DNA from: an uncultured Acetatifactor sp.
Lineage (GTDB): Bacteria > Bacillota > Clostridia > Lachnospirales > Lachnospiraceae
Assembly: GCA_947586055.1 (NCBI GenBank)
Contig: CANPXL010000006.1
Location: forward strand, 1-64,000
Length of the DNA stretch: 64,000 bases
Direction: 5' to 3'
Under the pieces are notes generated by a model, which worked only from the letters and a program-made list of their open reading frames with translations, made no database searches and had not been told where the DNA came from. The first letter of the stretch is position 1. Each line of letters starts with the position of its first letter. Below are positions 17,160 through 64,000 of the stretch, piece after piece. The translations under genes were made by a program, and so were the position numbers.

Positions 17160-19142
17160 TCAATAAGAATAGTAATCCGTTTCCGTGTCTACGCTGATTC
17201 CGCTTTCTTCCGAGACGTTTTCCAGAATGGTGTTGCCATTGCAGAGGACGGTGTCGAAATAAGCCAGTTCCTCCAGAGGCTTCAGGCTGGTCACATTGTT
17301 TTCGATGATGTTGAGATACTGCAGGTTCGGCATACAGGAGACGAAATCAATGCTGTCGATGCCAAGGGATGCCGCGTACAGGTACTCAACGGCGGGATAT
17401 TTCTCAAACATGTCATAGTGGTCTTTCAGCTGCAGGGTCTCGTCTCCCCATGCGTCTTTGTGAAAGCGAAAGCCGCTGATGTCCAGAAGAAGCAGGTTCT
17501 CGTTGGCGGGCAGACGGTCAAAGTCGATCACCCCGTCCACTTCCTTCAGGCACAGAAACTGCAGGGCGGGCGGCCCGAAGACTTCTTCCATGTTGCCGAA
17601 TACATAGGTTCCCGTCAGATCCAGATAAACCAGATCGGCAAGATCCTGCACAAACGCGAGCGGATGGTCTCCGGAAACGGAACAGTCCACCAGAGAAAGC
17701 TCTGTAAGAGGAAGGGAGGTCAGCAGTTCCAGATGGGAGTCGTCATAGTTGTTTTCCAGGTAGAGCTGGCTGATATTGCCGGCCGCCGTCACAAGGTGGA
17801 GTTCGTCCTCCCACAGATTTTTAAAGGCGGCATACTTTAACGCGGTCAGCTTTTCCAGAGACGGCACAGTCGCATCCGCGTTCTTGAACAGAGAAAGATC
17901 CGTCAGCTTTGTAAGGCCGCCGACGACGGTGTAATCCTTTACATTATAATTGTCGATCAGATACAGTTCGGTAAGTTCGGGACAGCCGGCGATACTGTCA
18001 ATGTCGGGGATCTGGCTTCCCTCTATGTACAGATAGGTCAGGTTCGGCATATTGCCTACAAAATCCAGCGTCTTGAGCTGGGACGAGGTGATGCTCAGCC
18101 GTTCCAGTCCGGTCAGGTTCATCAGGGGGCTAAAGTCCGTCAGCCGGTCGCAGCCCGTCAGCGCCAGACCGCAGAGATCGGGCATGTCGTTCAGGGCGGA
18201 GAGATCTGTCAGGCCGTAATATTCCACGCTCAGATACTGCAGATTCGGAAATGCCAGGGCATCCGCAAGACCCGTTTCCGAAAAAGCGTCGTAGACGCCC
18301 AGCGCGCGGATGTTCTCCGGACAGGGTATGATCTGCGCCAGATCCTTCAGCGAGTTTTCGGAATAGAGGGCGATGAGATGCTCCAGACCGTCCAGATCGC
18401 CCTTTTCCAGACTCTTTCCGGTCAGGGTGAGCTGTTCCAGCCCGGAAAAACAGGTCAGATCGGACAGATCAACGACGCTTGTGGCATCAAAGGTCAGGTC
18501 TATGCCGTCCGTGTATGCGTTCTGATAGTAGATTTCATGGGCGTCAAAATCGATCTCCAGCGAGTTGATCGCGGCAAGCTCTTCCGCAGTAACCTCTTCG
18601 CAGTCTTTTTCAAAGATCACGGAGACGAGTTCCTGAAAAAAGCCGGTCCGGGGAAGCCGAAAAGAGGATTCTCCGTCTTCGGTCTTTTCCGGACGAGTTG
18701 TCACGGCCTTCTCTGCGTAGGAGGAAGCGGGGGTTTTCGATTCTGTAGAACGTTTGGAACCGTTGCGAAAAGCGTTGTATGCGGCGATGGCGCCGCCGAT
18801 AAGGTTGATCGCGACCAGAACCGCGACCACGATGACCACCTGCTTTGCGATGGATGCTCCCTGGCTGTGGCCGCCGGAGGATCCGGAAGCAGCCGCGGGG
18901 ACGGGAGACAGGACGGGCGTCTGGTCATACATCTGCCGGGAAGGGTTTTCGTCTGCGGCCGTCCGTCCGGAAGAAGCGGCGTCGCCGAAAGGCGAGCCGG
19001 CGTCCGTGCGGTACGGGTCCGCGGAATAGGAGTCGTCGGTGTTGCTGCGGACATAGTAGCCGCATTCCCCACAGGTCATCCTTCCGTTGACGGGTTTTAA
19101 TTTTGTGCCGCAGATCGGGCATCTTTGCTGCGTGCCTGCCAT
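17160..19142 (-). CDS. Zinc-ribbon, single-pass membrane protein with leucine-rich repeats
   Basis: The N-terminus is a zinc ribbon (Cys8, Cys11, Cys24, Cys27), followed by a Ser/Pro/Ala-rich linker, one membrane helix (about residues 102-122, VVIVVAVLVAINLIGGAIAAY region) and a long extracytoplasmic part with about a dozen leucine-rich repeats of the L-x-x-L-x-L type (DLCGLALTGCDRL, LTGLERLSITSSQL). The zinc ribbon would face the cytoplasm. LRRs suggest protein binding at the surface. Zinc ribbons of this style also begin the FHA protein and both kinases at 58-64 kb. RBS AAAGGAT before ATG 19142. Confidence 0.82.
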   Translation of the reverse strand: MAGTQQRCPICGTKLKPVNGRMTCGECGYYVRSNTDDSYSADPYRTDAGSPFGDAASSGRTAADENPSRQMYDQTPVLSPVPAAASGSSGGHSQGASIAKQVVIVVAVLVAINLIGGAIAAYNAFRNGSKRSTESKTPASSYAEKAVTTRPEKTEDGESSFRLPRTGFFQELVSVIFEKDCEEVTAEELAAINSLEIDFDAHEIYYQNAYTDGIDLTFDATSVVDLSDLTCFSGLEQLTLTGKSLEKGDLDGLEHLIALYSENSLKDLAQIIPCPENIRALGVYDAFSETGLADALAFPNLQYLSVEYYGLTDLSALNDMPDLCGLALTGCDRLTDFSPLMNLTGLERLSITSSQLKTLDFVGNMPNLTYLYIEGSQIPDIDSIAGCPELTELYLIDNYNVKDYTVVGGLTKLTDLSLFKNADATVPSLEKLTALKYAAFKNLWEDELHLVTAAGNISQLYLENNYDDSHLELLTSLPLTELSLVDCSVSGDHPLAFVQDLADLVYLDLTGTYVFGNMEEVFGPPALQFLCLKEVDGVIDFDRLPANENLLLLDISGFRFHKDAWGDETLQLKDHYDMFEKYPAVEYLYAASLGIDSIDFVSCMPNLQYLNIIENNVTSLKPLEELAYFDTVLCNGNTILENVSEESGISVDTETDYYSY

Positions 19143-58388: not shown

Positions 58389-58988
58389 ATGAAACAATGT
58401 CCAAACGGTCATATTTATGACGAAAAGCGGAACAAGGAGTGTCCTTACTGCAGCGGTGGGAGCAGCTTTCAGCCGATAGGTCTGGGCGGACAGCCCGACT
58501 TCCCCAGGACGGTTCCCATTGCGGGGGGAGACGACGGCGCATTTCCGCCTACCGTCCCGGTGGACAGCGGCGCGGCGGCCACGGTTCCCTCGTCTTCGCA
58601 ATCCGCCATGAGCGTGACGGTGGCGCTTGAGGAAACGGAGAGCGGGATCAATCCGGTCCGCGGCTGGCTGGTGGTGACGGACGGCGAGAAAAAAGGGCTT
58701 TCCTTTGTGATACACGGGGAGCAGAATTCCATTGGAAGAGGAAACAGGTTTGATATCAATATTTCCTTCGACAAAGCCGTTTCATCCGACGGGAACGCGG
58801 TGATCGCCTATGATTCCAAGAACCGGAAGTTCTTTTTAAGTCCCGTGCTGGGAAAAGGAAAGAATAATATTTACCACAACGAAGCCATGCTGCTCATGCC
58901 GGTGGAACTTCACGACTATGACAAGATTCAGATCGGAGCGTTCGAGTATGTTTTCAGAAGCTTCTGCAACGAAGCCTTTTCTTATTAA
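58389..58988 (+). CDS. Zinc-ribbon FHA-domain protein
   Basis: Phosphothreonine-reading adaptor of 199 residues. The N-terminus has a zinc-ribbon-like C-P-x-G-H and C-P-Y-C set (KQCPNGHIYD, KECPYC), then a Gly/Pro/Thr-rich linker with TVP units that could be phosphorylated, then an FHA domain (about residues 95-190) with GWLVVTDGEKKGLSFVIHGE, NSIGRG and KIQIGAFEYVF. No membrane helix. RBS AAAGGAT before ATG 58389. First gene of the phospho-signalling island. Confidence 0.85.
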   Translation: MKQCPNGHIYDEKRNKECPYCSGGSSFQPIGLGGQPDFPRTVPIAGGDDGAFPPTVPVDSGAAATVPSSSQSAMSVTVALEETESGINPVRGWLVVTDGEKKGLSFVIHGEQNSIGRGNRFDINISFDKAVSSDGNAVIAYDSKNRKFFLSPVLGKGKNNIYHNEAMLLMPVELHDYDKIQIGAFEYVFRSFCNEAFSY

Positions 58989-58990
58989 TT

Positions 58991-59782
58991 ATGAAGCGCG
59001 GTGATCTGTCTGTCCGCATGAAATTTGCGGACTCGGATGTGAAAAGAATTGTCCTGGGATGCGTCAGCGAGCGCGGAGGCAGAAATTATCAGGAGGACAG
59101 CTTCGGGTTTTCCTCTGTGGAAAAGGCTGATATCGAGAAAAACGGATTCACTGCCGTAGTGGCGGACGGGATGGGAGGACTATCTCAGGGAGCGCAGGTC
59201 AGCGGCTATGTGGTGTCCGCCATGTTGGAAATGCAGAGGAACCGGAATGCCGCCGTTCCCGCCCATGTACACCTTTCCCGGTCTTTGTGCGCAGTGAACG
59301 ACAATGTGGTTGCAAGCGGCTTGAATGGAGGCTCTACCGCGGTGGTGATCTTTTGTACGGCAAAAGGGATTCATTGGTGCACCGCGGGAGACAGCAGAGT
59401 CTATCTGTTCCGGGATCAGGCGCTTACGGTACTCAACGAGGACAGCGACTATCTGAACAGGCTTATGGAGCAGGTCATTTCGGGAGACATGACGTTTGAC
59501 GAGGCGGGAAAAGACGCCCAGAAGGATTCTCTGGCGCAGTATATCGGCTGCCGTGCCGGAATCCACCCCGAGGTAAACGCGAAACCGCTGATGCCTCAAA
59601 GAGGCGATAAGCTGCTTTTGTGCACAGACGGGGTGTACAACGCGCTGAGCGGGCAGGAACTGTCGGAGGCGCTTGCGGGATCTGCGGGAGAGGCGGCAGA
59701 AGATCTGAAGAGCCGCATCTGCGGCAAGGGTTATCCGGATCAGGATAATTTTACGGCTGTAGTAATGGAATTTACAAAGTAG
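58991..59782 (+). CDS. PP2C-family protein phosphatase
   Basis: Metal-dependent Ser/Thr phosphatase of 263 residues. Motifs are GGRNYQEDSFGF (metal Asp), VVADGMGGLSQG, TAGDSRVYLFRD and DNFTAVVMEF. Cytoplasmic. It starts two bases after the FHA gene stop and likely counters the kinases at the end of the window. Confidence 0.9.
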   Translation: MKRGDLSVRMKFADSDVKRIVLGCVSERGGRNYQEDSFGFSSVEKADIEKNGFTAVVADGMGGLSQGAQVSGYVVSAMLEMQRNRNAAVPAHVHLSRSLCAVNDNVVASGLNGGSTAVVIFCTAKGIHWCTAGDSRVYLFRDQALTVLNEDSDYLNRLMEQVISGDMTFDEAGKDAQKDSLAQYIGCRAGIHPEVNAKPLMPQRGDKLLLCTDGVYNALSGQELSEALAGSAGEAAEDLKSRICGKGYPDQDNFTAVVMEFTK

Positions 59783-59795
59783 AAAGGAAAATGTG

Positions 59796-61292
59796 ATGAA
59801 AAGATTCAGGAAGTTGGCGACCGCCCTGTTTACGGCGGCAATTGCAATCATAATGACGGGGCCCCTGCAGGTGCGGGCGGGCTCTTTCTCAGACGCAAAG
59901 GAAGGCGTGGTATACATAGAGTCCCATTTTATTGCGGACGCCGATGTGGCGGCGGAGGATGATTTTATCTGGGCCGCCGGCGACGGAACCTATTCCTATC
60001 AGACCCCGGGTACGACGATGGGATTTCGGGCGTCAGGTTTCGCTATCGGAAACGAGGGAGAACAGGTACAGTATATCGTGACCAACGCCCACGTGGTGCT
60101 GGATGATACATCGGAAGGGATCCGGAGTGTGGATCCTCTGAATGCCACTATGAATGTGAGCAGCAAAAAGGCGTCGGAGGTGATTGTGTATTTTTCCTAT
60201 GGCGCGAATGATTTCATGCGGGCCCAGATTTATTTTGTGGACGAGGAAAAGGATCTGTGTATCCTGAAACTGCCGCAGGCCACAGATAAGAGAAAACCGC
60301 TGGTTCTGTGCAAATCCGGGGATATAGATATGGACGGCAATTTTGCCGCGCTGGGTTTTCCCGGGGACTCCGATCTTCTGATGGACGAAACTTCGCTGGC
60401 TTATGACATCGACGATATCACCAGTACGAGGGGCTCCATTTCCAGACAGTCCACCGATGAGAGCGGCGTCAGCGTCTATCAGATCGATATCGATATTACC
60501 GGCGGAAACTCCGGCGGGCCTCTGGTAAACGAAGAAGGACAGGTGGTAGGGATCAATACCTATTCTGTTACGAATCTGTCGAACGGTCATCAAAATAATT
60601 ATGCCATTGTGATCGACGAACTTTTACGGCTCATTGACCGGGAGACGGTTCCCTATACCCTCTCGACGGAGTTGGGCGCATCCGCAGGCAATACTCCTTC
60701 CACTGAAAGGGAACCTGCAGATGAGAAGGGACCTGCAGCTGAGAAGGAACCTCCAGCTCCCGGCGCCGATGAGGGGATTTCCGCAACCAGCGCTCCTTCC
60801 CCGGAGAAAGAATCTTCTTCCAATAACACGGTCGTGATCGTGGTCGTTGTCCTTGCGGCAGTCGTGGTTATCCTTGCGGCAGCGCTGCTTCTCAGGAAGA
60901 AAAAAACTCTCGGGCAGGCGGGATACGGTCAGAGCAGGGGAAATGCGCCCAGTCCTTCCGGGGTTGGGGCTGCGCCGTCCCGGAGCGCAGTGATCACGGG
61001 CATGAAGGGAATCCTGGCAAACAAGACATTCCCCATAGCCGGGAGCATTGTAATGGGAAGAAATTCCCAAAAGTGCAATGTGTGCTTCCCGGTGGATGCG
61101 CAGGGCATATCCGGCGTACACTGCCAGATCCGGCAGGTAAACGGCGGTTATGAGATTATGGATCTGGGCTCCAGCAACGGTACTTACCTGGGAAGCGGCC
61201 AGAAACTCACCCCTAATGTGCCGGTATCCATTCCGGACGGAACCTATTTTTACCTTGGAAGTGCGGAGCAGCTGTTTCAGATTAAATTTTGA
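59796..61292 (+). CDS. Membrane trypsin-like protease with C-terminal FHA domain
   Basis: Exported S1C-like (HtrA-type) serine protease linked through a membrane helix to an intracellular FHA domain. A signal sequence (about residues 5-28) precedes the catalytic domain, with His in TNAHVV, Asp in DLCILKL and Ser in GGNSGGPLV. A Glu/Pro/Ala-rich linker and helix VVIVVVVLAAVVVILAAALL follow (about 347-368), then FHA (GSIVMGRNSQKCNVCF, GISGVHCQI, DLGSSNGTYL). ATG 59796 is 7 bases after AAAGGA. The design suits reporting outside proteolysis to phospho-signalling inside. Confidence 0.88.
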   Translation: MKRFRKLATALFTAAIAIIMTGPLQVRAGSFSDAKEGVVYIESHFIADADVAAEDDFIWAAGDGTYSYQTPGTTMGFRASGFAIGNEGEQVQYIVTNAHVVLDDTSEGIRSVDPLNATMNVSSKKASEVIVYFSYGANDFMRAQIYFVDEEKDLCILKLPQATDKRKPLVLCKSGDIDMDGNFAALGFPGDSDLLMDETSLAYDIDDITSTRGSISRQSTDESGVSVYQIDIDITGGNSGGPLVNEEGQVVGINTYSVTNLSNGHQNNYAIVIDELLRLIDRETVPYTLSTELGASAGNTPSTEREPADEKGPAAEKEPPAPGADEGISATSAPSPEKESSSNNTVVIVVVVLAAVVVILAAALLLRKKKTLGQAGYGQSRGNAPSPSGVGAAPSRSAVITGMKGILANKTFPIAGSIVMGRNSQKCNVCFPVDAQGISGVHCQIRQVNGGYEIMDLGSSNGTYLGSGQKLTPNVPVSIPDGTYFYLGSAEQLFQIKF

Positions 61293-61317
61293 ACGGTAGA
61301 CAGGAAAGGGTTTTCCT

Positions 61318-62172
61318 ATGATAGTTGATTCATTTCATTATACCTGTGAAGGCGGGCGCGAGATCAATGAGGATTCCTTTCTGTGCAGTACCGACCGCGG
61401 CGTTTATGTTGTGGCGGACGGACTGGGCGGACATTCGGACGGCGAAAAGGCGTCCCTTGCGGCGGTAGATTATTTTGACAAAAACTGCCTTGGCGGATAC
61501 ACAGGGGAAAGCGTCTCACAGCTTTTGGAGGGCGCGAACGCAGAAGTGCTGGAAATGGGCGACGGTGGCAAGAGCACCGTCGCCGCAGGCTTTCTTGAAA
61601 AAGGATGGTTCCGTTATGCCAATGCGGGGGACAGCAGAATCTATTATTTCAGAGACAATAAGATCATTGCCCAGTCGAAAGACCATTCCGTCTGTCAGGC
61701 GTCGGTGGATATGGGACTGATCCGGCCGGAGGATATCCGGGGAAACGAGGACCGTTCCAGACTTTTAAAGGTTCTGGGGGGCGAGGAAAAACTGAACATC
61801 AAGATACACTATCCGCCGATCCAAGTGCAGAACGGAGATGCCTTCCTGATCTGCAGCGACGGCTTCTGGGATTATGTCTATGAAGCCGAGATGGAGGCGG
61901 ACCTTTTGAAATCCGACTGCGCGGAAGTGTGGGCGAAGCACATGCTGAAACGTCATATTCTGCGGGCACAGAATAAGGGGGACAATTACACGGTCATCTG
62001 CGGAATGATCCATCTGGATGAGGACGACGTATTTGAAGAGATACCGGATCTGCCTCCTGGGGAGGGAAGAACGCGGGCGCCCGAAGCGCGGGGGAGCCGC
62101 CGCAGGCCTTTTGTTGAACTGGTGGTTCTGGCTGTCATTCTGGTCATTCTGCTGGTAATTGCATTCCGGTGA
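61318..62172 (+). CDS. PP2C-family phosphatase with C-terminal membrane anchor
   Basis: A second PP2C, 284 residues. REINEDSFLC, VYVVADGLGGHSDGEKAS, NAGDSRIYYFRDN and GDNYTVICGM are the metal-binding motifs. A basic proline-rich hinge leads to a single C-terminal helix (VVLAVILVILLVIAF), so it is held at the membrane, near the protease-FHA protein. RBS AGGAAAGGG. Confidence 0.9.
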   Translation: MIVDSFHYTCEGGREINEDSFLCSTDRGVYVVADGLGGHSDGEKASLAAVDYFDKNCLGGYTGESVSQLLEGANAEVLEMGDGGKSTVAAGFLEKGWFRYANAGDSRIYYFRDNKIIAQSKDHSVCQASVDMGLIRPEDIRGNEDRSRLLKVLGGEEKLNIKIHYPPIQVQNGDAFLICSDGFWDYVYEAEMEADLLKSDCAEVWAKHMLKRHILRAQNKGDNYTVICGMIHLDEDDVFEEIPDLPPGEGRTRAPEARGSRRRPFVELVVLAVILVILLVIAFR

Positions 62173-62178
62173 TTTCGC

Positions 62179-62208
62179 TTGAAACAGGAGTGTATTTTCA
62201 TGTATAAT
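62179..62208 (+). promoter_or_regulatory. Promoter before the kinases
   Basis: TTGAAA at 62179-62184, 18-bp spacer, TATAAT at 62203-62208, just before the first kinase. It would allow kinase expression separate from the phosphatases. Confidence 0.65.
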
Positions 62209-62225
62209 AGAGGAGAAGCGGTTCG

Positions 62226-63287
62226 ATGGTAACACTGGGTAATAAACTGTTATGCTCGGCATGTTTTTCACCAATAAAAAAAGAGCCTTGTAAAAAGTGC
62301 GGCTTTTCTGAAGAGAATTATGTGCCGGACAGTATGGTGCTTCCTGTGGGAACGGTGCTGATGGGCAATTTCATCATCGGCAGGGTTCTGGGGAGAGGCG
62401 GATTCGGAATCACTTACCTTGCCTACGATGTCAAATACAGTAAAGTGATCGCCATTAAAGAGTATTTTCCGGTAGAACTTGCCATGCGGAGACAGGGCGA
62501 GACAGGACTGATGGTGCGGGACAGGAAATCCGCGGAGCTGTTTAAGAGCGGCGTCCTGAAATTTTACAATGAAGCTGGGTTTATTGCAAGGTTTGCCGAC
62601 AGCGAGGGAATCGTCAAGGTCTATCAGTTCTTTTACGAGAACAACACCGCCTATTTTACCATGGAATACCTGACGGGCATGACGTTAAAGGATTATGTGA
62701 TCAACTGCGGCGTTCTCACGGCGGGACAGGCGCTGCGCATTGCGGATCAGGCGGCAGCCGCCCTGCAGAAGATCCACAGTCAGAATGTGCTGCACCGGGA
62801 TGTCTGCCCCGACAATATCATGCTTTGCAGCGACGGCAGCGTTAAGATTCTGGACTTTGGCTCAGCCAGACAGGTCTTTCCCGAGGGGTCCCAGCTTTTA
62901 ACGGTTATCCTGAAGCCGGGCTTTGCTCCGATCGAACAGTATATGCGCAAGGGAAAACAGGGAGAGTGGACGGATATCTATGCGCTTGCCGCGTCTATTT
63001 ACTACGGACTGACCATGCAGATTCCGGAGAATCCTCAGAACAGGCTGGAGGATGATTCGGATATGGAGAACAATAGATATCATGTTGCCCCGGAGCTCTG
63101 GAGCGTTCTGTATAAAGCCATGAAGCTGAAGTACACCGACCGCTATCTCTCTACCGGGGAATTTCAGAAAGCGCTCGCAGATATTCCGATCAGACGCCAG
63201 AACATACGTATATCCGGCAGGACAATTCATAAAAAGGATACCGACAGTCCCCTCCGTCAGCTTCTTTCAAAGCTGTTTCGGGCGTGA
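62226..63287 (+). CDS. Zinc-ribbon Ser/Thr protein kinase (first)
   Basis: Eukaryotic-type kinase of 353 residues. A four-Cys zinc ribbon (LLCSACF, PCKKCGF) opens the protein, then the kinase domain: GRGGFGITYLAYD (P-loop), IAIKEYFP (Lys), HRDVCPDNIM (catalytic loop) and LDFGSARQ (DFG). The activation region FAPIEQYMRKGKQGEWTDIYALAASIYY is typical of this subfamily. No membrane helix or PASTA domains. RBS GAGGAGAAG before ATG 62226. Confidence 0.92.
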   Translation: MVTLGNKLLCSACFSPIKKEPCKKCGFSEENYVPDSMVLPVGTVLMGNFIIGRVLGRGGFGITYLAYDVKYSKVIAIKEYFPVELAMRRQGETGLMVRDRKSAELFKSGVLKFYNEAGFIARFADSEGIVKVYQFFYENNTAYFTMEYLTGMTLKDYVINCGVLTAGQALRIADQAAAALQKIHSQNVLHRDVCPDNIMLCSDGSVKILDFGSARQVFPEGSQLLTVILKPGFAPIEQYMRKGKQGEWTDIYALAASIYYGLTMQIPENPQNRLEDDSDMENNRYHVAPELWSVLYKAMKLKYTDRYLSTGEFQKALADIPIRRQNIRISGRTIHKKDTDSPLRQLLSKLFRA

Positions 63288-63314
63288 TGAGAAAAAAGGA
63301 GCATTGGTGCGGAT

Positions 63315-64000
63315 ATGATAGAGGTAAATGGAAAGAAATTGTGCGAGAACTGTTTTTCTGAGATCTCCCAGGAGCCGTGCGCCTGCTGTGGATATGGAGA
63401 GACGCAGGAGGAGACGGATCGCAGCGTCCTGCAGGCGGGTACAAAACTGAACGGACATATCCTGGTGGGAAAGGTAATGGGGAAGGGAGGGTTCGGCGTC
63501 ACTTATCTGGGTTATGACTGCAGAATGGATAAAGTGGTGGCCGTAAAAGAATATTTCCCCAACGGTATCGTATACCGTTCCGGAGGGACAGAAGTGCTTT
63601 TAGCGGATGTAAAGTCCAAAGAGGTCTTTTCCAGGGGAGCGGATAAGTTCTACGACGAGGCCCAGATGGTGGCGCAGTTCAACGGGAACCCTAATATTGT
63701 CAGCGTGTTTGAGTATTTCCGGGAGAACAACACCGTTTATCTGGTGATGGAATTTCTGGACGGCATCACGTTGAAGGATTACATCAAAAAACGGGAAAAC
63801 CTTTCGGACGGTCAGGTGTTGTTTGTTTTCAATAAGATGGCGTCCGCCCTGAGCATTACCCACAGCGCGGGAGTGCTGCATCGGGACATTTCTCCCGATA
63901 ATATCATGCTGTGTACGGACGGCAAGGTAAAGCTGATCGATTTCGGCGCTGCCCGCCAGATCATGGAAGAGAGCGCATCCAATCTTACTGTGGTATTAAA
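63315..64000 (+). CDS. Zinc-ribbon Ser/Thr protein kinase (second, runs off the window)
   Basis: A paralogue of the previous gene. The start ATG 63315 begins IEVNGKKLCENCFSEISQEPC, again a zinc ribbon, followed by GKGGFGVTYLGYD, VAVKEYFPNGIVYR, HRDISPDNIMLC and LIDFGAARQ. The frame stays open to the last base, so the C-terminal part lies outside. Gap to the first kinase is 27 bp. The pair looks like a tandem duplication with diverged substrate regions. Confidence 0.92.
   Translation, partial: MIEVNGKKLCENCFSEISQEPCACCGYGETQEETDRSVLQAGTKLNGHILVGKVMGKGGFGVTYLGYDCRMDKVVAVKEYFPNGIVYRSGGTEVLLADVKSKEVFSRGADKFYDEAQMVAQFNGNPNIVSVFEYFRENNTVYLVMEFLDGITLKDYIKKRENLSDGQVLFVFNKMASALSITHSAGVLHRDISPDNIMLCTDGKVKLIDFGAARQIMEESASNLTVVL

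Follow-up and report, generated by a model that had tools for sequence, protein, structure and literature searches.

Several described bacterial systems pair a Ser/Thr kinase with a PP2C phosphatase, and they form the background to a gene island analysed here at the end of a 64,000-nucleotide stretch of DNA (the window) from an uncultured Acetatifactor sp. of the Lachnospiraceae (positions 1-64,000 of contig CANPXL010000006.1, hereafter C6, in the 2.81-Mb assembly GCA_947586055.1). PrkC/PknB-PASTA with Stp1 combines a Hanks-type kinase with a PP2C. The TerY-P triad consists of a TerY-like VWA protein, a PP2C and a kinase with a C-terminal zinc ribbon (PMC11090510), while the actinobacterial GAP1-N2 GTPase systems, which also have a zinc-ribbon kinase, PP2C and vWA, centre on the GTPase and GAP1 (PMC7159879). 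The PpkA-PppA-Fha pathway of the type VI secretion system (T6SS) links a membrane kinase, a phosphatase and an FHA scaffold to envelope sensing (PMC10482370), and in the GarA/OdhI switch a Thr ahead of an FHA domain is phosphorylated by a Ser/Thr kinase (PMC8546545). In Bacillota, the type VII secretion system (T7SS) variants T7SSe and T7SSd have a membrane Ser/Thr kinase (TseD), a PPM/PP2C phosphatase (TseF) and an FHA protein (TseJ) (Garrett, Higginson and Palmer 2024, PMC11217815). The island, which sits between truA and rplM on C6, is by its parts a variant of Hanks-kinase/PP2C/FHA signalling, and the open-licence literature searched yielded no description of this operon. We give even weight, for and against, to its being a transmembrane Ser/Thr phosphorylation relay that here is independent of secretion.

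From its sequence the island is predicted to be an operon of eight genes, in the order zinc-ribbon FHA adaptor (ZnFHA), PP2Ca, a protease joined through a transmembrane (TM) helix to an FHA domain (protease-TM-FHA), PP2Cb with a TM segment, kinase K1, kinase K2 with a TM segment and an outer domain, a helix-turn-helix (HTH) gene and kinase K3 (Table 1). The first-pass annotation of the window had described a phospho-signalling unit made of the first six; their positions and identities are confirmed, the genes are tightly spaced (2, 10, 25, 53 and 27 bases between successive genes), Pfam recognizes PP2C_2 in both phosphatases and Pkinase in K1 and K2, and that reading holds in its main lines. 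Six was an undercount, since the window edge truncates the set: extension past position 64,000 supplied the rest of K2, the HTH gene and K3, followed on C6 by a VWA protein. The catalytic motifs are intact in the kinases ([VI]A[IV]K, HRD and DFG) and in the PP2Cs (DGxGG, GDSR, DG and DN). Zinc ribbons take the form CxxC..CxxC in the kinases, at residues 5-25 of all three and hence N-terminal, and C...H/CPYC in the adaptor. K1 and K3 have no TM segment; K2 has one, with an outer part beyond it.

This gene set can be told apart from each of its described neighbours. Kinase, PP2C and zinc ribbon are shared with TerY-P, to which the first-pass annotation had likened the island, and some relatives add a VWA protein. 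Membership of TerY-P is nonetheless rejected, because the kinase ribbon is N-terminal here and C-terminal there and because a TerY-like VWA is lacking; moreover, the VWA of the relatives is carried on a TM-FHA protein, a protease and an FHA adaptor are present, and the core operon is without VWA. A profile built from four VWA sequences matched nothing in the window or around the operons of three relatives (G342, G313 and G349, described below), so that the decayed VWA gene suspected elsewhere in the window finds no backing from this small profile, which could miss a decayed copy. That the island has no VWA gene is correct for the core operon; the genome itself has a VWA protein 0.7 kb past K3. 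The island is likewise not a PrkC/PASTA system, as had been proposed: with NF033483, whose cut-off is 450 bits, the three kinases reach only 122, 171 and 136, Pfam scans of the operon proteins found no PASTA domain, and the gene set differs. The operon proteins gave no Pfam match to a GTPase or GAP1 and have a protease and FHA adaptor instead. The logic of PpkA-PppA-Fha is similar, but here the protease has its own FHA domain and there are several kinases; no T6SS gene was seen among the proteins annotated, no T6SS profile having been searched in the genome. With candidate phospho-acceptor Thr residues ahead of an FHA-like domain the adaptor recalls GarA/OdhI, from which it is set apart by its zinc ribbon and by Thr-Val-type sites, numbering one to several, in place of one ETTS motif; it shows no sign of a metabolic target.

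The operon recurs as a unit. G342, G313 and G349, all of this genus, have the eight genes in this order, and so does G626, which belongs to another family of the same class; within the genus the operon type is present in 4 of 61 genomes, our own included. The island proteins of G342 are 94-99% identical to ours and occupy the same truA-rplM site. In G313 the eight genes lie elsewhere, on its contig C7, while its truA and rplM stand 270 bases apart on C4. The proteins of G626 are 57-67% identical (K2, 44%), whereas TruA finds a single match there, at 38% identity to ours; the operon being closer than TruA suggests transfer between families, although TruA alone is a thin yardstick for this. The differing insertion sites, too, suggest transfer of the operon. 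In Ruminococcus sp. NALB_7811_11 one contig (L062) has genes one to six of the set, 59-69% identical to ours, among other neighbours; K2 is cut there by the contig end. As the first-pass annotation had proposed to check, comparison across relatives shows that the core genes co-occur and that their homologues are not scattered. Counting second TruA copies, 29 truA loci of relatives were compared, and in 11 of them no more than about 450 bases separate truA from rplM. Stretches around truA were also read in six further genomes of the genus: in four, different genes fill 1.8-4.9 kb ahead of rplM (L258-L261), and two showed no rplM in the stretch read; none of the six stretches matched the profiles of this system. 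The truA-rplM junction may thus be an insertion hotspot.

The proposed fusion of an external protease to an internal FHA domain is present here and conserved in relatives. Pfam recognizes Trypsin_2 (4.7e-23) and FHA (1.6e-13), and both the catalytic triad H100/D154/S240 and the FHA residues G422-R423, S440 and H443 (GR...SxxH) are invariant over eight aligned rows. AlphaFold2 models were weak (mean pLDDT, the predicted local distance difference test, of 57.9 and 50.1), and only the protease part was used; this low-confidence model matches the folds of DegS, HtrA1 and Deg1 in Foldseek. None of 14 plasmid records had a copy covering 80% of the protease, and the protease of the best plasmid match, a Subdoligranulum plasmid, showed no FHA match.

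The most specific evidence comes from the adaptor. Its FHA domain falls just under the Pfam cut-off (19.8 versus 20.7 bits), and a profile made from eight such adaptors finds others outside the training set, the best at 4.5e-73 (G006). The ribbon residues, Thr41 and Thr77 are invariant in all eight aligned rows, and the linker between ribbon and FHA-like domain contains the motifs RTVPI, PTVPV, ATVPS and VTVAL. Linkers could be parsed from 46 of 64 ZnFHA open reading frames (ORFs) and were thinned to 22 sharing less than 50% identity. For the pattern T[VM][APGS], settled in advance of the count, these 22 linkers yield 34 occurrences compared with 4.2 +/- 1.9 in composition shuffles (n = 2000), and 17 of them contain it; in 14 held-out linkers it occurs 18 times against 2.6 +/- 1.5, in 10 of the 14. 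No shuffle out of 2000 reached the observed count in either set. The Ser version is not enriched (5 versus 4.3 in the 22 linkers, 3 versus 2.6 in the 14 held out), which points to phosphothreonine, the ligand of FHA domains. A looser pattern, T[VIM], gave 54 against 16.8 in the 22 linkers (present in 21) and 33 against 11.3 in the 14, its Ser counterpart giving 15 against 17.3 and 8 against 11.3; this pattern was picked with all linkers already in view, so that the held-out set is not a clean test of it. The Thr-Val-type sites of the adaptor linker are therefore candidate phospho-acceptors. The FHA-like domain of the adaptor retains G116, R117 and S132, with Asn in place of the SxxH His found in most relatives, and the adaptor may accordingly act more as a ligand displaying phosphothreonine, the protease FHA domain being the reader.

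Beyond the eight-gene operon, ZnFHA genes mark a wider set of looser clusters, spread over several clostridial families. By hand count, at least 10 of 299 family genomes from 298 genera (G000, G250, G067, G169, G147, G114, G225, G194, G130 and G143) have a ZnFHA no more than 7 kb from a protease-TM-FHA. A further set of 20 family ZnFHA loci was hand-picked, mainly by score, from 59 places at or above 100 bits, two of them in one genome, and left out the protease clusters already fetched; at a threshold of 25 bits, 19 have a PP2C, 14 both PP2C kinds, 14 a kinase, 17 another FHA ORF and one a protease. Class-wide, 16 of 31 ZnFHA places besides our own, again at or above 100 bits, were counted by hand (threshold 20 bits for the neighbouring genes): protease-TM-FHA is found at 13, PP2Ca at 15, PP2Cb at all 16 (two short), a kinase at 13 and VWA-TM-FHA at 6. 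As controls, 76 trypsin-gene loci, mostly from other phyla with at least four from Bacillota, gave no PP2C, one kinase and no FHA, with profiles that were trained on loci of this family and may be insensitive; no genes of the system were present at 29 truA loci from this family and its order. FHA tails in relatives are borne by VWA-TM proteins, a PrsW intramembrane protease and a dynamin-like GTPase (by Pfam) and by kinases (by profiles). The wider system looks like one hub with exchangeable sensors. A pair of bacterial dynamin-like GTPases, of which one ends in an FHA domain, lies beside one cluster of the type that we call class A (L045:13698-18338, minus strand). A second kind of cluster also recurs (L142, L159-L161 and L256), consisting of TM-FHA, a short ZnFHA, TM-PP2C and a large PP2C-TM protein; it has a neighbour of about 730 amino acids (aa), and several genes of about 140 aa accompany it in L142 and L160.

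The HTH gene may supply an output. In 21 of the 29 best other loci of its family a Ser/Thr kinase is found no more than 1.5 kb away, so that HTH and K3 look like a pair of genes that recurs together and could plausibly provide a transcriptional output; matches to the family occur in 99 of 299 genomes, most of them weak. The C-terminal parts of the kinases vary: 4 of 10 scanned have a recognized domain (DUF5050 twice, once with YARHG as well, DUF6273, and MORN) and 6 have none.

The sequence itself shows the domains with their active-site motifs, the predicted topology, the conservation of the set as a unit and the Thr-specific linker motif; from these we infer docking, signal and output as follows. 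The predicted topology puts the protease and the K2 outer domain outside the cell, and the FHA domains, kinases and phosphatases inside. An envelope or extracellular cue would act on the K2 outer domain, and K1, K2 and K3 would phosphorylate Thr-(Val/Ile/Met) sites in the adaptor linker. With its phosphothreonine-site residues intact, the protease's FHA tail would then dock on the phosphorylated sites and gather the protease at active receptors, where proteolysis outside could amplify, trim or end the signal. Resetting the system would fall to the soluble PP2Ca and the membrane-bound PP2Cb, and K3 may act on the neighbouring HTH protein to give a transcriptional response. The FHA-tailed proteins of relatives (VWA, PrsW, dynamin and kinase) would plug interchangeably into this one adaptor hub. 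Somewhat more tentatively, and on balance against our expectation, there may be an as yet undescribed clostridial class of transmembrane signalling in which FHA-tailed enzymes and sensors as unlike as the trypsin-fold protease, VWA protein, PrsW, receptor kinase and dynamin GTPase plug into one ZnFHA, with repeated Thr-Val/Ile/Met sites written by zinc-ribbon kinases and erased by the PP2C pair; the kinase/phosphatase set of T7SSe would then be a relative of this machine-independent module, hooked to secretion in some lineages.

Several observations weigh against the relay and its parts. The adaptor FHA-like domain, without the SxxH His in this subfamily, may not bind phosphothreonine, and the linker counts leave out 18 of the 64 adaptor ORFs, whose linkers could not be parsed. 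The protease domain of G349 is only 41% identical to ours, the FHA tail being at 72% or more. Six of the 20 family ZnFHA loci have no kinase. The K2 outer domain has no Pfam match, and a search of the PDB returned chance-level matches only (best E 0.044). In our own genome this domain is tandemly duplicated (C6:64605-65982, also L008:2605-3982; units of about 414 bp, copies 86-95% identical) and the frame is broken between the copies; the duplication was shown by BLAST, Tandem Repeats Finder giving nothing in K2, and it could be real or an assembly fault in this metagenome-assembled genome. The domain is single and in frame in G342; in G349, K2 is also split, between kinase and TM part, over two frames. 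The HTH gene was found only in operons of our own type and in G626, not in other class A loci. Finally, the Thr motif is not enriched in the juxtamembrane linkers of kinases (5 versus 5.5 in 53 linkers), and docking of FHA domains on those linkers, which we had considered, is unsupported by that count. Two ZnFHA clusters near T7SS genes, taken up below, count on the same side.

Other readings of the operon were weighed against the relay. A chance run of unrelated signalling genes has in its favour only the variable gene order among distant relatives; the shared order of all eight genes in five genomes, our own among them, and the co-occurrence of the core compared with the controls refute it, and its probability is close to nil. 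A rather unlikely but more substantial alternative is that control runs from the inside out, the kinases reading internal state and the FHA tail switching or placing an envelope quality-control protease of the DegS/HtrA kind, with no outside signal. The protease fold fits this, the FHA tail stands in place of the PDZ domain of DegS and HtrA proteins, and K1 and K3 lack TM segments; yet K2 and many kinases of relatives have a TM segment and a long outer part, with a recognized domain in 4 of the 10 scanned, and VWA-TM-FHA partners recur. We consider it improbable that the operon is a conflict or phage-defence system of the TerY-P or vWA-MoxR kind, with protease and kinases as sensor-effectors. 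Its patchy spread (the 4 of 61 genomes above), its variable sites and the other cargo at truA-rplM in four relatives would suit such a role, and combinations of vWA, kinase, PP2C and trypsin are reported from conflict systems (PMC7159879). The kinases also match the PADLOC models mad6 and PD-T4-6 strongly, down to 3e-52, PADLOC giving no cut-offs; models for protease, PP2C and TPR were matched as well, again without cut-offs. The same kinases match many kinase models, and the NCBIfam MAD6 cut-off is missed (131 versus 460 bits). Furthermore, the operon proteins given to Pfam had no match to a nuclease, TIR or MoxR, and the protease and K2 outer domain face outwards.

As in T7SSe, a Ser/Thr kinase and a PPM phosphatase lie beside an FHA protein here, and a related protease-TM-FHA/PP2C/kinase trio occurs beside such type VII secretion loci. 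The operon could be the regulatory arm of a T7SS of the T7SSe kind, detached or acting in trans, with counterparts of the TseD kinase, TseF phosphatase and TseJ FHA protein plus a protease; we regard this as very improbable. What speaks for it comes chiefly from loci that we call class B, which carry protease-TM-FHA, PP2C, a divergent kinase without zinc-ribbon label and often a small TM protein. The genome search covered six class B loci, with six more outside it. In five of the six (G153 twice, G207, G148 and G058) the trio lies within 20 kb of an EssC over cut-off; in the sixth, in G012, the two are on different contigs. In G364 the class B set stands beside an EssC-profile match, and Ig-like giants or an LXG protein occur near some class B loci, as in T7SSe (PMC11217815). 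Two ZnFHA clusters without protease also belong here: one about 9 kb from an EssC-profile match (G012 contig C2, L154), the other with an EssC fragment and WXG100 genes 16-20 kb away (G095 contig C94, L060). Against this, the class B loci that were read lack ZnFHA and the zinc-ribbon kinase label. In our own genome the best EssC match, FtsK-like, reaches 111 bits against the cut-off of 778 for TIGR03928, and there is no WXG100 match (PF06013); the assembly is 97% complete, and genes in the missing part or too diverged would escape these searches. T7SS membership is thus rejected for this genome; a place in an already described secretion system would have counted against the first-pass reading. 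WXG100 matches number zero in G342 and G313, one below cut-off in G349 and none over cut-off in G303. EssC over cut-off was found in 2 of 9 protease-bearing class A genomes searched (G250 and G147, on contigs other than that of the cluster) and not in the other 7. EssC-profile matches were absent from all 8 class A loci and from all 7 genus or named loci that were read. Compared with T7SSe, the operon is without EssC, WXG100 and TseI and adds ZnFHA, a second PP2C, three zinc-ribbon kinases and the HTH gene; no DUF6382, the TseJ domain, was found in the island proteins scanned with Pfam. A T7SS close by is therefore possible for this module but not required. In the main text of PMC11217815 the words trypsin and peptidase are absent and 'protease' occurs twice. 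Six loci near EssC (L059, L061, L058, L057, L054 and L208) carry protease-TM-FHA, mostly beside PP2C and kinase. Our own genome also encodes a DUF6382-FHA protein (C26:200-1681, minus strand; L009) beside genes that look like Tad pilus genes; this is the domain pair of TseJ, in a genome with neither EssC over cut-off nor WXG100.

If the relay reading is correct, clostridia would possess, besides PrkC, a widespread phosphothreonine module with a defined set of writers, erasers and readers, in which a protease outside is wired to a phosphothreonine reader inside and a nearby DNA-binding protein is the candidate output. It would bear on the origin of the kinase and phosphatase genes lately seen in T7SS variants, and the role of protein kinases in commensal clostridia would become testable with one operon, for which specific Thr and FHA residues are offered.

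Table 1. Features of the island and of the DNA that follows it. Positions without prefix refer to the window; those with prefix C6 or L008 to the contig or to an extracted locus.
Feature	Position	Strand	Description
ZnFHA adaptor, 199 aa	58389..58988	+	C4/H8/C18/C21 zinc ribbon, Thr-rich linker, C-terminal FHA-like domain
PP2Ca, 263 aa	58991..59782	+	No predicted TM; Pfam PF13672 (PP2C_2) 4.8e-8; metal-site motifs present
Protease-TM-FHA, 499 aa	59793..61292	+	Signal peptide, trypsin/HtrA-fold protease, TM ~341-366, cytoplasmic FHA; Pfam
PP2Cb, 284 aa	61318..62172	+	Pfam PF13672 8.1e-7; motifs; one C-terminal TM at 262
Promoter-like site 5' of K1	62179..62208	+	TTGAAA-18-TATAAT, 11/12 consensus positions; consensus scan only
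K1, 353 aa	62226..63287	+	No TM; N-terminal zinc ribbon and Ser/Thr kinase; Pfam Pkinase 9.1e-31; IAIK/HRDVCPDN/DFG
K2 (start in window)	63315..64000, frame runs on to C6:65165	+	Zinc ribbon, kinase, TM at residue 401, outer domain
HTH gene (past window)	C6:65888-66460		After K2 in operon order
K3 (past window)	C6:66470-67444		Third zinc-ribbon kinase; after HTH gene
Rpn-like remnant	L008:5441-5908		After K3; named by eye; no Pfam match
Zinc-ribbon-TM-TPR-VWA-C-type-lectin protein	C6:68174-70600		0.7 kb past K3
GH3 enzyme, then rplM-rpsI			After VWA protein on C6

The VWA protein and the GH3 gene that follow K3 were considered as members of the operon and set aside, tblastn giving no match in the stretches read at the operons of G342, G313 and G349. 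The Rpn-like copy after K3 is truncated, and G342 has a related ORF of 248 aa in that position; a second copy, also named by eye, lies at L010:4347-5732. Promoter-like sites number 10, compared with 4.8 +/- 1.9 in shuffles, and terminator-like sites 8, compared with 5.5 +/- 2.4; little weight is given to either. The zinc-ribbon membrane protein noted elsewhere in the window is indeed there, as a 660-aa zinc-ribbon/TM protein at 17160-19142 on the minus strand. A fifth Ser/Thr kinase is encoded on contig C13 (L010:9117-10262), where the 240-aa gene upstream is PP2C-like by eye, with no Pfam match, and the adjoining genes look like rseP and dxr.

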